IMG/VR virus record: IMGVR_UViG_3300028130_000016
Location: 1 to 31,198 of that record
Reading direction: 5' to 3' (one strand)
Origin: a virus
DNA: 31,198 bases
Position numbers and translations under genes: made by a program. The notes beneath the pieces are model-generated. The model was not told where the DNA came from. It saw only the letters and a program-made list of their open reading frames with translations, and did not search any database. The number at the start of each line of letters is the position of its first letter. Position 1 is the first letter of the stretch. Of this stretch, positions 4,954 through 29,216 are shown piece by piece.

Positions 4954-4985
4954 AAAGGGGGGCTTTACACTGGCTCCCTTTTTCT
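4954..4985 (+). terminator. rho-independent terminator overlapping the next promoter
   Basis: AAAGGGGGGC pairs with GCTCCCTTT across a short loop and leads into TTTTTCTTT. The loop and right arm contain the -35 box and part of the spacer of the promoter at 4964-4992. The same bases therefore end one transcript and start the next. Confidence 0.65.
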
Positions 4986-12683: not shown

Positions 12684-12708
12684 GGGGTGACAAATAGTCA
12701 TCCCTTTT
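12684..12708 (+). terminator. rho-independent terminator
   Basis: GGGGTGAC (12684-12691), loop AAATA and GTCATCCC (12697-12704) form an 8-bp stem with one G-U pair, followed directly by TTTT. It ends the replication block just 3 bases before the next -35 box. Confidence 0.82.
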
Positions 12709-12711
12709 ATC

Positions 12712-12740
12712 TTGACGTAAAGACAACACTGTGATATAAC
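12712..12740 (+). promoter_or_regulatory. sigma70 promoter for the nucleotide block
   Basis: TTGACG (12712-12717), a 17-bp spacer and TATAAC (12735-12740); each box has one mismatch. The first gene starts at 12755. Confidence 0.82.
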
Positions 12741-13627: not shown

Positions 13628-13692
13628 GTGAATACAACTCATACCACTATGTAATGCAACTAATTGAACAAACATTAAAGGATAGCTTATGA
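13624..13692 (+). CDS. possible mini-gene (22 aa) coupling HNH to nrdJ
   Basis: The ATG overlaps the HNH stop (ATGA) and the TGA overlaps the nrdJ ATG (ATGA). It would encode 22 residues (MSEYNSYHYVMQLIEQTLKD then SL). Its main role may be to carry ribosomes from the HNH gene to nrdJ rather than to make a working peptide. The AAAGGA site for nrdJ lies inside it. Confidence 0.35.
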   Translation: MSEYNSYHYVMQLIEQTLKDSL

Positions 13693-15455
13693 TCAAGAAC
13701 TCAGAATCAGACCGCCCAGTAGGCCCAACAATCGGTCTGTCTGAAGAGATTCACCAGATGAAGTACCGGTCGAAGGGTGAGAGCTTTCGAGCGGCTATGA
13801 CACGGGTTGCCAACGCACTCAAGGACGACGAGCACCACTTCCAAGAGTTCCGTGATATCCTATACGACATGCGCTTCATGCCGGCTGGACGGGTACAATC
13901 AGCTATGGGTGCTCCTAGACGCGTCACGGCTTACAACTGCTTTGTGAGTATGACCATCCCTGACTCTATGGAAGGTATCATGCTCGCAGCACAAGAGGCT
14001 GCTAAGACTATGCAGCTTGGAGGTGGTATCGGTTATGACTTCAGTACCCTCCGTCCCTCAGGTGCCCTCATTAAGGGCCTAGAGAGCCGCTCTAGTGGTC
14101 CTCTGAGCTTCATGGGTATCTTTGACGCAGTATGCAAGACTATCAGCTCAGCTGGCCACCGTAGAGGCGCTCAGATGGGTGTACTGCGGGTAGACCACCC
14201 TGACATTTCTTCATTCATCCACGCCAAGACCAATTCAACAGCTTTTACACAGTTCAACCTATCAGTAGGTGTCACAGACAAGTTCATGCAAGCTGTTAAA
14301 GAAGATGATACCTTTGATTTAGTCTTTGAAGGCCGTGTCTATGACACTGTCAATGCCCGTGCCCTGTGGGATGACATCCTGCGTAGTACATGGGATTGGG
14401 CTGAACCAGGCATCTTGTTCATCGACCGTATTAACAAGAAGAATAACCTGCACTACTGCGAGACTATTGCAGCGACTAACCCATGCGGTGAGCAACCCTT
14501 GCCACCAAACGGTGCATGTCTCCTTGGTTCATTCAACCTAGTCAAGTACATCTACGAGTGTGACGGTACCTACTCGTTTGACTACGAGAGCCTTAAGCAT
14601 GACATCCCGCATGTCGTACGTGCTATGGACAATGTAGTTGACCGAGCAGTATACCCTCTTCCTTCACAAGAGGCAGAAGCTAAGTCTAAAAGACGTATGG
14701 GTCTTGGGGTCACAGGTGTAGCTAACGCTATCGAAGCTATGGGCCACGAGTATGGCTCCCCTATGTTCCTTCTTACTCTCATGAAGATCATGAAGCTTAT
14801 CCGTGACACAGCGTATATAGCCTCTGTATCTCTTGCGGCTGAGAAAGGACCGTTCCCGTTGTACCGCGAAGAGTTCCTCGACAGTGACTTCGCAAAGACA
14901 CTACCAACAGACATTCGGGATAGGATCAGCCGCTATGGTATCCGTAACAGCCACCTACTCAGTGTAGCACCAACCGGTACTATCAGCCTCTCAGCTGACA
15001 ACGTCTCGTCGGGTATCGAACCAGTCTTCTCCTACGGTTTTGACCGTACTATCCAGACCTTCGATGGCCCACGGGTTGAACGTGTAGACGACTACGGTTA
15101 CCGCACATTCGGTGTTAAAGGCCGCAAGGCTGATGACCTCCCTGTGTTGACCCACGTAGAGGTTCTTAACCTAGCCTCACGCTACGTAGACAGTGCTTGC
15201 TCTAAGACCTGTAACGTAGGTGACGATGTGTCATGGGATGAGTTCAAAGCTGTGTACATGGCTGCGTATGACGGAGGTGCATCTGGTTGTACTACTTTCC
15301 GTGCCTCTGGTAAACGCTATGGTATCCTCAACGCCTCCTCCTCTGAGGATGTAGTAGAGGAGAAGTTAGAAGAGGACAACAGTGACTTCGTCGATGAGAA
15401 AGAGGGAGGAGCCTGTTACTTCGACGTCAATACAGGTCAACGTGAGTGTAGTTGA
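13689..15455 (+). CDS. nrdJ: adenosylcobalamin-dependent class II ribonucleotide reductase
   Basis: The enzyme reduces ribonucleotides to deoxyribonucleotides using a B12 radical, without oxygen or a second subunit. Class II features are clear: AYNCFV (C84), NPCGEQPLPPNGACLLGS with N264, C266 and E268, VAPTGTISL, and SACSKTCNVGDDVSWDEF followed by GCTTFRASGKR. The C-terminus keeps a pair of redox cysteines (GGACYFDVNTGQRECS). There is no nrdB-type partner. At 588 residues it is compact, as in phage NrdJ. The need for cobalamin is noteworthy given the transporter cassette downstream. Transcription ends at the hairpin at 15491-15520. Confidence 0.95.
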   Translation: MIKNSESDRPVGPTIGLSEEIHQMKYRSKGESFRAAMTRVANALKDDEHHFQEFRDILYDMRFMPAGRVQSAMGAPRRVTAYNCFVSMTIPDSMEGIMLAAQEAAKTMQLGGGIGYDFSTLRPSGALIKGLESRSSGPLSFMGIFDAVCKTISSAGHRRGAQMGVLRVDHPDISSFIHAKTNSTAFTQFNLSVGVTDKFMQAVKEDDTFDLVFEGRVYDTVNARALWDDILRSTWDWAEPGILFIDRINKKNNLHYCETIAATNPCGEQPLPPNGACLLGSFNLVKYIYECDGTYSFDYESLKHDIPHVVRAMDNVVDRAVYPLPSQEAEAKSKRRMGLGVTGVANAIEAMGHEYGSPMFLLTLMKIMKLIRDTAYIASVSLAAEKGPFPLYREEFLDSDFAKTLPTDIRDRISRYGIRNSHLLSVAPTGTISLSADNVSSGIEPVFSYGFDRTIQTFDGPRVERVDDYGYRTFGVKGRKADDLPVLTHVEVLNLASRYVDSACSKTCNVGDDVSWDEFKAVYMAAYDGGASGCTTFRASGKRYGILNASSSEDVVEEKLEEDNSDFVDEKEGGACYFDVNTGQRECS

Positions 15456-15457
15456 CC

Positions 15458-15487
15458 TTGACATAACATAACCAAGTATGATATACT
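15458..15487 (+). promoter_or_regulatory. sigma70 promoter overlapping the nrdJ terminator
   Basis: TTGACA (15458-15463), an 18-bp spacer and TATACT (15482-15487). The expected start near 15494 lies inside the left arm of the terminator hairpin that follows. It drives the DUF3310 gene and the envelope cassette. Confidence 0.83.
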
Positions 15488-15490
15488 AAC

Positions 15491-15520
15491 GGGGAGGATC
15501 GCAAGGTCTTCCCCTTTTTT
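15491..15520 (+). terminator. rho-independent terminator after nrdJ
   Basis: GGGGAGGA (15491-15498) pairs with TCTTCCCC (15507-15514), with one G-U, and is followed by six T. Transcripts from nrdJ would terminate here. Those starting at the overlapping promoter would lack the outer part of the left arm. Confidence 0.85.
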
Positions 15521-15530
15521 AATACAGAAT

Positions 15531-15661
15531 AGGAAAAGATATGGCCCCGCAGAAACCAAAGCCTAGGCGTGAAACTACTTATACAAGACTAAGAGTAGGA
15601 AAAGATATGGCCCCGCAGAAACCAAAGCCTAAGGGCAAGACTAAGCGTGAAACTACTTATA
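15531..15661 (+). repeat. tandem duplication covering a ribosome binding site and gene start
   Basis: A perfect 35-bp direct repeat (15531-15565 and 15597-15631, offset 66) includes AGGAAAAGAT, the ATG and the first eight codons. A further 17-bp match follows (15567-15583 and 15645-15661, offset 78), so the second copy carries a 12-bp insertion. The 66-bp offset keeps both ATGs in frame. Confidence 0.9.
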
Positions 15662-15930
15662 AAGGTGCCGCAGCTAAGAAGACTTCCGGTATCGAAGATA
15701 ACAACTACAACAACATTGATAAACCCTTTCACTACAACCAAGCTGGGGTGGAATGTATCGACTACATCAAGCAAGTTCTTGGCAAGGAAGGCTTCATCGC
15801 TTACTGTCGAGGTAACGTAATGAAGTACAACCATCGAGCTTTCTATAAAGGAAACCCCACAGAAGACATGGCGAAAGCTGAACAGTACCTGAAGTGGGCC
15901 AATGAGACACTAAAGGAGATACACAAATGA
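15541..15930 (+). CDS. DUF3310 (SaV-like) phage protein, two in-frame starts
   Basis: The C-terminal domain (INKPFHYNQ-like start, GVECIDYIKQVLGKEGF, YCRGNVMKYNHRA, DMAKAEQYLKWANE) is the small helical DUF3310 domain found next to nucleotide metabolism genes in many phages. Its role is unknown, and a nucleotide kinase or MazG-like part has been suggested. A tandem duplication gives two equal starts, ATG 15541 (129 residues) and ATG 15607 (107 residues), each with the same AGGAAAAGAT site. The N-terminal tail is Lys/Pro rich (MAPQKPKP twice). The stop overlaps the next ATG. Confidence 0.85.
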   Translation: MAPQKPKPRRETTYTRLRVGKDMAPQKPKPKGKTKRETTYKGAAAKKTSGIEDNNYNNIDKPFHYNQAGVECIDYIKQVLGKEGFIAYCRGNVMKYNHRAFYKGNPTEDMAKAEQYLKWANETLKEIHK

Positions 15931-16563: not shown

Positions 16564-16995
16564 ATGAGAACTTGGAAATGGTACTTCGTGTTTAACGCCG
16601 GTATCTTGGGTCTTATAGGGGGTCAGTACTGGTTTAATCTAGGTAATGTGTTATACGAAGCAGACAGCACAATGTTGACATTCATTATCCTAGGTATAGC
16701 TATTATCTCATCGTCCATGATGGGACTACGTGCTAAGAAAATGGTTGGACAAGATAACAACATGTCCTGGTTCCTCTCTGATGCAGTTCTTAGCCTTGGT
16801 ATGGTAGGTACTCTATTCGGGTTCCTCCTTGTACTAGACTCTGCCTTCACAGAGATCGACACATCGTCCACAGAGAGTATGACAGAGGCTATCGGAGTTC
16901 TTGCATCAGGTATGTCTACTGCTCTTGTAACGTCCCTTGTAGGGCTCCTATCGTCACTCTGGTTAAAACTACAGCTAGTCATCTTGGAGGGTTGA
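16564..16995 (+). CDS. ExbB/TolQ/MotA-like proton channel subunit
   Basis: Four hydrophobic segments are seen in 143 residues (about 5-24, 37-57, 70-95, 106-135). The last two hold the family signature: LGMVGTLFGFLLVLDSAF and then IGVLASGMSTALVTSLVGLLSS, equivalent to the helices that line the ion path in ExbB, TolQ and MotA. The large cytoplasmic domain of MotA is missing. Such proteins work as pentamers around a dimer of an ExbD/MotB partner, which is the next gene. Expected location is the inner membrane. Confidence 0.8.
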   Translation: MRTWKWYFVFNAGILGLIGGQYWFNLGNVLYEADSTMLTFIILGIAIISSSMMGLRAKKMVGQDNNMSWFLSDAVLSLGMVGTLFGFLLVLDSAFTEIDTSSTESMTEAIGVLASGMSTALVTSLVGLLSSLWLKLQLVILEG

Positions 16996-16996
16996 T

Positions 16997-17581
16997 ATGA
17001 GACGTTACTCAAGCAACCTTGCGTTCGTTGACTTGTTGTTTAACCTCCTGGTGGGTTTCACTTCTCTGTTTGTTATCGCTTTCCTGTTGATAAACCCTAT
17101 CGCTAAAACAGGGGTGGTTGACCCACCCGTAGTAATCATGGTGGAGTTGACATGGGATGATGAGAGTACAAGAGACCTTGACCTGTACACCCGTGGTCCT
17201 GACGGTAAGATCGTTAGCTACGGGTACAAGAGCAACGGGTTCATAACCCTAAAGAAGGATGACCTTGGTAAAGGCAGTGACACTTTCGTTATCAACGGGG
17301 AGCGAGTAGAGGTTACCCGTAACTACGAGATCACTACTATGACGGTCTTGCCTGACGGGGACTACATCATCAACGTACACTACTTCTCATCGAAAGGTGA
17401 CCCAGAAACGGTTAACCTTCGTATAACAGGGCTCCAACCCTTTAAGGTACACCACGAGGATTCTGTTACGTTGTCACCTAGGCAGGAGCGTACTATTGTG
17501 GCTTTCAGGGTGGTAGACGGGGAGATAGTGGACCTTCGTTCTGATATCGAAGTGAAACTAAGAGGAGAGGAAGGTCCATAA
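16997..17581 (+). CDS. ExbD/TolR/MotB-like stator partner with periplasmic beta domain
   Basis: A single helix (about 8-32, FVDLLFNLLVGFTSLFVIAF) with a conserved-position Asp near its start matches the proton-carrying helix of ExbD, TolR and MotB. The outer part begins MVELTWDDESTRDLDLYTRGPDG and goes on as strands (DGDYIINVHYFSS), like the D-x-D-L beta domain of YfaP/DUF2135 proteins, in place of the usual TolR or peptidoglycan-binding domain. It starts one base after the channel gene's stop. I infer a two-part ion-driven machine with a novel periplasmic end. It could transfer energy to an outer-membrane or peptidoglycan target. Confidence 0.7.
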   Translation: MRRYSSNLAFVDLLFNLLVGFTSLFVIAFLLINPIAKTGVVDPPVVIMVELTWDDESTRDLDLYTRGPDGKIVSYGYKSNGFITLKKDDLGKGSDTFVINGERVEVTRNYEITTMTVLPDGDYIINVHYFSSKGDPETVNLRITGLQPFKVHHEDSVTLSPRQERTIVAFRVVDGEIVDLRSDIEVKLRGEEGP

Positions 17582-18021
17582 TGTTAGTCATTCAAACAGT
17601 ATACGTAGTACTCGTTACACTTGTTGTGTTCCTTATGTTCTACTCCAAGTTAGGTAGGTTCTTTAAGGCATCAGCCCTTACACTTTCTATCTTACTTGGG
17701 GCTGTTACGCAGACACACTACGTTAAACAACTAGGTAGTCCCATCGAGGGCTACCCATCCTACGAGTTCCTGTACATTCACCATATAGCTACAGGTAAGT
17801 TTATCAAGGTATGGGTCTGGGATAAAGAACGAGGTGATCGTCTCTACGTTATCCCCTACAACCAGGATGATGCTGAAAAGCTAGAACAAGCTAAGCAGAA
17901 GACTGAGCAAGGGTCTCCTCAGGGTGGCTCCTTTGACCAAGAACAAGGAGATAGGGAACGAGCCGAAGGACTACGTATAGACGACTGGCAGAACCCTGAC
18001 ATCTCAGAAAGGAAGAGTTGA
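17581..18021 (+). CDS. two-helix membrane protein of unknown function (146 aa)
   Basis: Two hydrophobic segments (about 2-20 and 28-45) are followed by a soluble domain starting YEFLYIHHIATGKFIKVWVW and ending in a Gln/Glu/Asp-rich tail. The gene overlaps its neighbours by 1 and 1-3 bases (TAATG, TGATG), so it is part of the cassette. I do not recognise a family. It may bridge the stator pair and the transporter or anchor a cytoplasmic partner. Confidence 0.72.
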   Translation: MLVIQTVYVVLVTLVVFLMFYSKLGRFFKASALTLSILLGAVTQTHYVKQLGSPIEGYPSYEFLYIHHIATGKFIKVWVWDKERGDRLYVIPYNQDDAEKLEQAKQKTEQGSPQGGSFDQEQGDRERAEGLRIDDWQNPDISERKS

Positions 18022-18992
18022 TGTGGGTTTTTTACACAAGCAAGAAGTGGGCCCTCTGGGCCTACCTCGGCACCTTCTTTATACTAGGTACCCTATGGTT
18101 ACAGGTACAAGTAGACGTACAGATTAACCACTGGTTCGGTGACTTCTACGACCTGGTCCAGAAGGCACTTGCCACCCCAGGGTCTGTGACTATAGGTGAG
18201 TACTGGGCAGGGCTTGCATCTTTTGGTTGGTTGGCTGGTACCTGGGTTGCCCTCAGTCTTGTTGGTTCCTTTGTCACCGCTCACTTCCTCTTCCGCTGGA
18301 GAGCGTCAATGGTCGAGTGGTACCACGAGGTCTTCGATAAAGGGCGTACCATTGAGGGTGCTTCACAACGTGTCCAAGAAGACACGATCAAGTACACGAG
18401 GATCGTAGAAGGTCTAGGTGTTTCACTAATAGAGAGCGTAATGATTCTCGTCGAGTTCTTCCCACTACTACTGGGTCTTGGCGCAGGGTTGTCTATCCTC
18501 TGGTTTGGAGATTGGAAATATGGATTGGTTACAGGAGCTTTCGTCTGGACATTGGGCGGTACTTTGCTACTTGTTGTTAGTGGTTATATCTTACGGCTGG
18601 TTGGCATTGAATACGACATCCAGAAGAAAGAAGCAGCGTATCGTAAACACCTTGTCAAGATGGAAGACGACGGTACTGTCTCTCCTAAGGCGTTAACTGA
18701 GCTATTCGAGGATGTACGTACAATACACTTCACTAGTTATCTTCAGTACCTTAAGTTTAACGTGGTGCGTATGGCCTATCTACAAGTTAATGTCCTGACT
18801 GCTTATATCTTCTTAGCTCCTGCTATTGTAGGTGGTCTTATTTCACTAGGTGTGATGCAGCAAATCATCCGTGCCTTTGGTAGAGTAGAGGGTTCTATGC
18901 AGTTCTTGATTAAGTCTTGGCCCACTATCATAGAGCTCATCTCAGTGTACAAACGACTACGTGAGTATGAGGCACAGATCAAGTCATCTTGA
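18021..18992 (+). CDS. sbmA: SbmA/BacA-family peptide and cobalamin-type transporter
   Basis: The 323 residues align by eye with E. coli SbmA from its residue 85 or so to the C-terminus: FYDLVQKAL, FRWRASMVEWY, IEGASQRVQEDT, EAAYRKHLVKMEDD, and ISVYKRLREYE at the end. SbmA and BacA are inner-membrane, proton-driven importers of peptides such as microcins and bleomycin. The related mycobacterial Rv1819c imports cobalamin. The first membrane segment of SbmA is absent, but all later segments are present. ATG 18021 is preferred over the TTG just before it, behind AAAGGAAGAG. The stop overlaps the next -35 box. Confidence 0.9.
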   Translation: MWVFYTSKKWALWAYLGTFFILGTLWLQVQVDVQINHWFGDFYDLVQKALATPGSVTIGEYWAGLASFGWLAGTWVALSLVGSFVTAHFLFRWRASMVEWYHEVFDKGRTIEGASQRVQEDTIKYTRIVEGLGVSLIESVMILVEFFPLLLGLGAGLSILWFGDWKYGLVTGAFVWTLGGTLLLVVSGYILRLVGIEYDIQKKEAAYRKHLVKMEDDGTVSPKALTELFEDVRTIHFTSYLQYLKFNVVRMAYLQVNVLTAYIFLAPAIVGGLISLGVMQQIIRAFGRVEGSMQFLIKSWPTIIELISVYKRLREYEAQIKSS

Positions 18993-19744: not shown

Positions 19745-19774
19745 TTGACAGGAGGGGTGTGCTTATGGTATACT
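19745..19774 (+). promoter_or_regulatory. sigma70 promoter for the two terminal small genes
   Basis: TTGACA (19745-19750), an 18-bp spacer and TATACT (19769-19774). It directly follows the clpP stop and gives a leader of about 28 nt to the 27-residue gene. Confidence 0.83.
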
Positions 19775-19808
19775 CCTCCTATTGTTTAATTAGAGAAGGA
19801 TTATCACT

Positions 19809-29187: not shown

Positions 29188-29216
29188 ATTATACATGTTT
29201 CCAGGGGTTCTGTCAA
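29188..29216 (-). promoter_or_regulatory. sigma70 promoter of the virion operon
   Basis: On the - strand, TTGACA (29216-29211), a 17-bp spacer and TATAAT (29193-29188), both perfect. It is the only - strand promoter I can see in the window. It gives the acyltransferase and the ejection proteins a start separate from the tail-fibre genes upstream. Confidence 0.92.

Follow-up and report, generated by a model that had tools for sequence, protein, structure and literature searches.

The window analyzed here (the whole stretch of DNA, an IMG/VR virus record of 31,198 nucleotides) carries on its + strand nrdJ, encoding a class II ribonucleotide reductase (13689–15455; an ORF matching PHROG 84 with E 7e-129), followed by a gene for a DUF3310 protein (15541–15930), whose N-terminal tail, by its ORF and by sequence comparison, is the one that PhoH has in the relatives. 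The junction between them, 15458–15520, is occupied by a promoter and a hairpin on the same strand. The −35 hexamer TTGACA (15458–15463) starts 2 nt past the nrdJ stop codon, and an extended −10, TG-A-TATACT, is located at 15479–15487 (TG at 15479–15480, TATACT at 15482–15487); both were found by direct reading and by a mechanical scan. The resulting promoter, TTGACA-N18-TATACT, matches the consensus at 11 of 12 positions, with an 18-nt spacer and the TGn of an extended −10. Its hexamers, a spacing within the 16–18 nt of sigma70-type promoters, and its retention in relatives that were found through homology of nrdJ or neighboring genes are all as expected of a sigma70-type promoter. From the standard sigma70 spacing, 7 nt past the −10, transcription is predicted to start at 15494 (plausible range, 15492–15496).

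After three nucleotides (AAC), the left arm of a hairpin begins, GGGGAGGATC (15491–15500), whose first three G come before the predicted start. It is followed by a GCAA tetraloop (15501–15504), the right arm GGTCTTCCCC (15505–15514), and a directly readable tract of six T (15515–15520). Both arms were delimited by folding and covariation, and the aligned relatives carry other GNRA or UUCG/UUAG-type loops. The first-pass annotation had ended the −10 box at 15487 and placed a hairpin with six T at 15491–15514, and direct reading and the mechanical scan both agreed with this. The hairpin is real, but its stem, given there as 8 bp, is 10 bp long, consisting of 8 Watson-Crick and 2 G.U pairs under a GNRA cap. 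Folding of 15470–15530 gave −19.7 kcal/mol (z −4.08), and none of 200 shuffles was as good. As a G+C-rich hairpin directly before a U run, it has the form of an intrinsic terminator, with a terminator score of +31.3 (after d'Aubenton-Carafa). Within 8–24 kb, terminator-like sites were in excess (28, compared with 11.7 in shuffles, sd 3.6), and promoter-like matches at 9/12 were not (16 compared with 17.1, sd 3.9). Therefore, at the 9/12 cut-off the promoter alone is statistically unremarkable, unlike its conservation, which is remarkable.

The ribosome binding site AGGAAAAG and the ATG of the downstream gene (15531–15543, from reading and the ORF list) are located outside the stem. AGGA starts at 15531, 17 nt past the stem, so that the site is not hidden as in the T4-type hairpins discussed below. 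A search of Rfam gave no match within the window at the gathering score. At 15530–15640 (+), the ribosome binding site of the downstream gene and the region around its start are also duplicated in part, in tandem, with a second match at 15592–15661 at 80%; several close relatives have a single copy.

Conservation of the stem and of its distance from the promoter

The element was located directly after nrdJ in 17 of the 55 nrdJ loci examined, and an exact scan of viral contigs that included the hairpin returned 17 contigs, identical to those loci. Broader scans recovered diverged copies elsewhere in the clade, placed before a gene with the same N-terminal tail and after different upstream genes. 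In one relative (L100, 5126–5202), a tRNA-Arg gene (anticodon tct) is positioned between nrdJ and the same promoter element.

We aligned 30 distinct copies, which are homologous and not independent; three of 33 candidates were left out, two from another family (L252 and L254) and one chance match (L296). TTGACA, TG, and TAnnnT were present in all 30, as the selection pattern required, and so were the first four T past the stem, of which the pattern required three. The first stem base was located 2–4 nt past the −10 in 30/30 copies, despite indels and stem changes. Across the 300 cells of the stem in these copies, 94.7% were paired, compared with 58–66% in slid-stem controls. Cells changed on both sides numbered 35, against a shuffle mean of 13.4 (0/500 shuffles as high), and the covariation score was 0.494 compared with 0.273 in shuffles. 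Two of the five covariation measures were not above shuffles (double-change pairs, 6 vs 5.3; further pair types, 15 vs 13.3). Because the relatedness of the sequences inflates covariation counts, we placed the main weight on the comparison with slid stems. The three outermost G-C pairs, which matter most here, were invariant across the 30 copies and therefore give no covariation support; GGG right after the −10 could also be favored as a promoter discriminator. Within this alignment, the predicted stem is backed by compensatory changes. A DNA operator was also considered for the 15458 stem and rejected, since G.U pairs are used and the sequence changes keep RNA pairing.

Viral contigs were scanned for TTGACA-N15-TGnTAnnnT followed, at three distances, by a G3...C3 hairpin frame and TTTT; the chance figures thus refer to this one frame, which misses other stems. 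With the hairpin 1–4 nt past the −10, at least 80 stretches were found, at least 51 of them distinct, and 46 of the 51 had clean hairpins among the matches listed. Moving the hairpin to 8–11 nt left 16 stretches, 10 distinct (one already in the first scan) and 1 clean, and moving it to 15–18 nt left 4 stretches, all distinct and none clean. In cells (84,980 bacterial and archaeal genomes, one per species), the 1–4 nt motif occurred in 16 stretches, 15 distinct and 4 clean. These far poorer displaced and cellular scans indicate that the arrangement is characteristic of viruses and of the 1–4 nt distance. Together with conservation and covariation, the displaced-motif controls ruled out a chance origin. 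A same-strand ORF, chosen mechanically, was located just upstream of 76 of the 80 listed elements, as termination of read-through would require; the remaining four comprised two at a contig edge and two behind an opposite ORF.

Predicted fate of the two RNAs and competing readings

The full hairpin in the window has a folding energy of −17.0 kcal/mol. Since the first stem base is 2–4 nt past the −10, a start 7 nt past the −10 falls 3–5 nt into the left arm. As the first-pass annotation had held, an RNA from the predicted start at 15494 lacks the outer left-arm pairs; it keeps 7 pairs, at −7.9 kcal/mol, with 3 unpaired nucleotides before the U run. From 15495, 5 pairs are left (−4.3 kcal/mol, 5 nt before the U run). 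From 15492, by contrast with the start at 15494, 9 pairs are left (−14.5 kcal/mol); own RNA started there might still terminate, which counts against a composite function. The terminator score of the full hairpin was positive in 28/30 copies and below zero in two, and that of RNA starting 5–9 nt past the −10 was positive in 0/30. The annotation's further claim, that read-through stops and own RNA passes, accordingly agrees with the scores of the full and truncated stems and holds as a prediction from them.

From the fold, we infer that a host-type RNA polymerase arriving from nrdJ would transcribe the hairpin in full, together with the U run, before being released. A polymerase at the sigma70-type promoter would start at about 15494, within the left arm, and its RNA would lack the outer three or more G-C pairs. 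Intrinsic termination needs a strong stem and closeness to the U run. Because both are lost in the shortened RNA, the leftover stem would be too weak and too distant from the U run to terminate, and transcription would enter the downstream operon. Drawing on the phase, the conservation, and the context, we consider it quite likely that the element is a composite terminator–promoter at an operon junction. The separation of two transcripts by RNA 5′ end alone, as originally suggested, would be one effect of this design. More generally, the element probably serves to join the end of one operon to the beginning of the following one, since other promoters in the window adjoin or overlap terminators while their own RNA is free of the hairpin.

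Mere packing, in which a short intergenic space makes terminator and promoter overlap and the start-in-stem phase does nothing by itself, would account for the finding that overlap as such is common here; terminator/promoter pairs occur in other registers of the window, at 4955/4964, 12684/12712, and 19750/19745. However, packing does not predict that the phase of 2–4 nt is held in 30 copies diverged by indels and stem changes, or that the motif is nearly gone from viral contigs once the hairpin is moved by 7 or 14 nt. We therefore regard it as unlikely.

Far less probable is a 5′-terminal stabilizer, with the shortened stem guarding the new mRNA from 5′-end-dependent decay and termination of read-through being minor. 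RNA from 15494 would indeed begin with a 7-bp GNRA stem with no unpaired 5′ base, yet relatives with a −10 that is 1–2 nt closer to the stem lose more of the arm, and the short versions of other phages (L253, L259, L251) do not retain a good hairpin. In addition, a stabilizer does not need the T run, which is nevertheless kept. Slightly more doubtful still is an attenuator, whose hairpin would act on its own transcripts and lower or condition expression of the downstream operon. The hairpin and T run just past a promoter have this appearance, but own RNA from the predicted start cannot hold the whole left arm, none of the 30 scores was positive, and there was no Rfam match. A riboswitch was likewise discarded, there being no Rfam match and no outer arm in own RNA from the predicted start. 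We give the least credence to a mobile recombination cassette resembling the promoter-early stem-loops (PeSLs), favored by selection chiefly because its short shared homology would let genes be shuffled: the upstream gene varies among relatives, the element and the downstream N-terminal tail travel together, and in the window this tail is joined to a DUF3310 body rather than to PhoH, but each of the 80 listed stretches gave one match and the window holds one copy, so that a partner for recombination within one genome is missing.

Other promoter–terminator pairs and other phages

Loci fetched by protein homology, regardless of promoters, contained 351 strong promoters, which formed 109 clusters. 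Terminators were located within −110 to +90 of these promoter clusters in 16 instances: 12 overlapped the promoter or start region, 3 were upstream, and 1 was wholly within its own transcript. Six of the 16, all among the 12 overlapping, are versions of the 15458 element. In the window itself, five terminator-like hairpins on the + strand are intergenic and reach −12 kcal/mol or below (a hairpin at 18797, within coding sequence, was left out of the count). Four of them (4955, 12684, 15491, 19750) overlap or adjoin a promoter, and the fifth, 20158, ends a convergent region. Own RNA scored as a terminator in 0/4 of the window pairs.

A second fused pair was observed at 12684–12740 (+), where a terminator hairpin directly precedes TTGACG-N17-TATAAC. 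The representative of its cluster (L005, 13 instances) has TATAAT as its −10, and the −10 of the window may therefore be weakened. At 19745–19780 (+), the promoter spacer and −10 themselves form a hairpin, of which the loci contain 16 distinct versions; several have A/G changes that keep G.U pairing, and others fold poorly. The T run of the hairpin at 19750 is weak, with a score of −6.7. This hairpin may act as a terminator, as an operator, or as both, and because of the poorly folding versions and the weak T run, we do not claim a terminator there. At 29216–29160 (−), a long inverted repeat that has no T run encloses in its loop the −10 and start of a consensus promoter, an arrangement kept in one relative (L165) and lost in others.

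The nearest named relatives of the virus are Roseobacter phages, CRP-13 and CRP-9 by DNA polymerase and CRP-738 and CRP-9 by nrdJ. Nothing like the element follows nrdJ in CRP-9, CRP-13, or CRP-738. Among 10 named phage records read around phoH, there are 8 in which phoH and the annotated gene before it overlap or are separated by no more than 23 nt, too little for the element to fit; for SIO1 (NC_002519) and FJ867913, the annotation is unclear or absent. The cultured relatives that we read provided no named host for the element, and a search for distant matches to the L254 junction gave none in a named phage. That the cultured relatives read here are without the element at this junction is a point against the composite reading.

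Many of the scan matches belong to the nrdJ/phoH element. Nevertheless, 12 of the 18 context clusters among the matches listed do not. They include a group with a cyanophage-type purM upstream, one located at a photosystem II gene of cyanophage type, and one at the junction of lysozyme with the next gene in RaK2-type phages of Klebsiella, of which RaK2, K64-1, and Muenster are in culture. At that junction, the depositors of Klebsiella phage Muenster annotated a terminator. Salmonella phage Munch has a hairpin and a −10-like sequence in the same phase. In S-SKS1 and S-RIM44, whose purM is similar to that of one such family (L211), the junction has no such element. We scored 12 sequences for 11 of the 12 non-nrdJ clusters, leaving out L228, which has no hairpin. 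The full score was positive in 10/12 and that of RNA truncated from 7 nt in 0/12; two sequences (L231 and L263) were still positive at a start of 5 nt. Judging from these sequences, unrelated phages also carry the arrangement.

A geometry scan of T4-type phage RB49 covered 100 of 164 kb, and five examples were picked from it by eye. Fused pairs were found in several registers, the same as in the window, including one hairpin right after the −10, with the start in the stem, and one across spacer and −10. The full hairpin was positive in 3/5 of these examples, and the one at 2199 was still positive for own RNA at starts of 5–7 nt.

More tentatively, with a chance that we put a little short of even, the start in the left arm may be a convergent, phage-specific insulator in unrelated phages. 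Such an insulator would stop all incoming RNA and pass its own within less than 70 bp and without a protein, and a terminator could be located anywhere around the promoter except wholly within its own leader. If true, this would be a very compact, protein-free one-way transcription valve, in which the RNA 5′ end alone sets terminator function. It would also carry the PeSL concept beyond T4-type myoviruses into other phages, and would offer a simple part for promoter insulation. Maps of phage transcript starts and ends should then show terminators that are common across starts and absent just inside leaders.

Relation to known elements and downstream genes

The two functions proposed here are also served by an ordinary intrinsic terminator and a separate promoter, but these share no bases. 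In protection of the IS10/IS50 type, transcripts from outside form a hairpin that is absent from inner-promoter transcripts. The hairpin is likewise confined to outside RNA, but the effect is translational and belongs to a transposon. PeSLs occur as several similar copies per genome that recombine. They are composite promoter–terminator cassettes, reportedly described in T4-type myoviruses by Arbiol et al. in 2010 and Comeau et al. in 2014. Passages of citing papers expand PeSLs as promoter early stem loops, and a title calls them composite conserved promoter-terminator motifs. Our element resembles them in that a strong sigma70-type promoter is fused with a stem-loop terminator at a gene junction. 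In contrast, it is a single copy at a fixed place, sharing no sequence with the other junctions of the genome, and the phage in which it is located is not of the T4 type and has a T7-like DNA polymerase. Its phase, moreover, is held with compensatory stem changes. Because two PeSL features, recombining copies and a T4-type phage, are absent, we do not call the element a PeSL.

Passages on T4 e, soc, 49, I-TevI, and segB and on Aeh1 mobE describe a late promoter within an inhibitory hairpin. As described there for e, soc, 49, and I-TevI, the RNA 5′ end decides whether the hairpin forms, such that upstream transcripts form it and inner-promoter transcripts cannot. That hairpin, however, hides the ribosome binding site and acts on translation, whereas the one described here is predicted to terminate transcription. 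Related literature comprises PMC1524935, PMC2993671, PMC3014915, PMC2988022, PMC4503421, PMC4177764, PMC3528706, PMC3950731, PMC5348500, PMC5931544, PMC3037559, PMC10134795, and PMC7698491. The open-access literature searched yielded no description of such an element for phages of this kind. The 5′-end principle and the fused layout are thus already known; what is added is a putative version in marine phages that are not of the T4 type, present as a single copy at a fixed locus, locked in phase, and backed by covariation.

The genes downstream of the element provided further observations. Residues 23–51 of the DUF3310 protein (15541–15930, +) are 72% identical to residues 1–28 of the PhoH of a relative (L202), and this comparison gives the impression of a gene body that was replaced immediately behind the promoter element. 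A full-length SbmA/BacA-like transporter (Pfam PF05992, E 4.8e-124) is encoded at 18018–18992 (+); it was matched in only 4 of 50,697 phage records, at 37–44% identity. BacA-type proteins import B12 and peptides, and this gene sits in an operon after a B12-dependent ribonucleotide reductase. Between the 15458 element and the SbmA-like gene, at 16564–17581 (+), are a MotA/ExbB-like protein, with a weak Pfam match below the cut-off, and an adjoining membrane-anchored-looking ORF, which together may form an energized membrane module.
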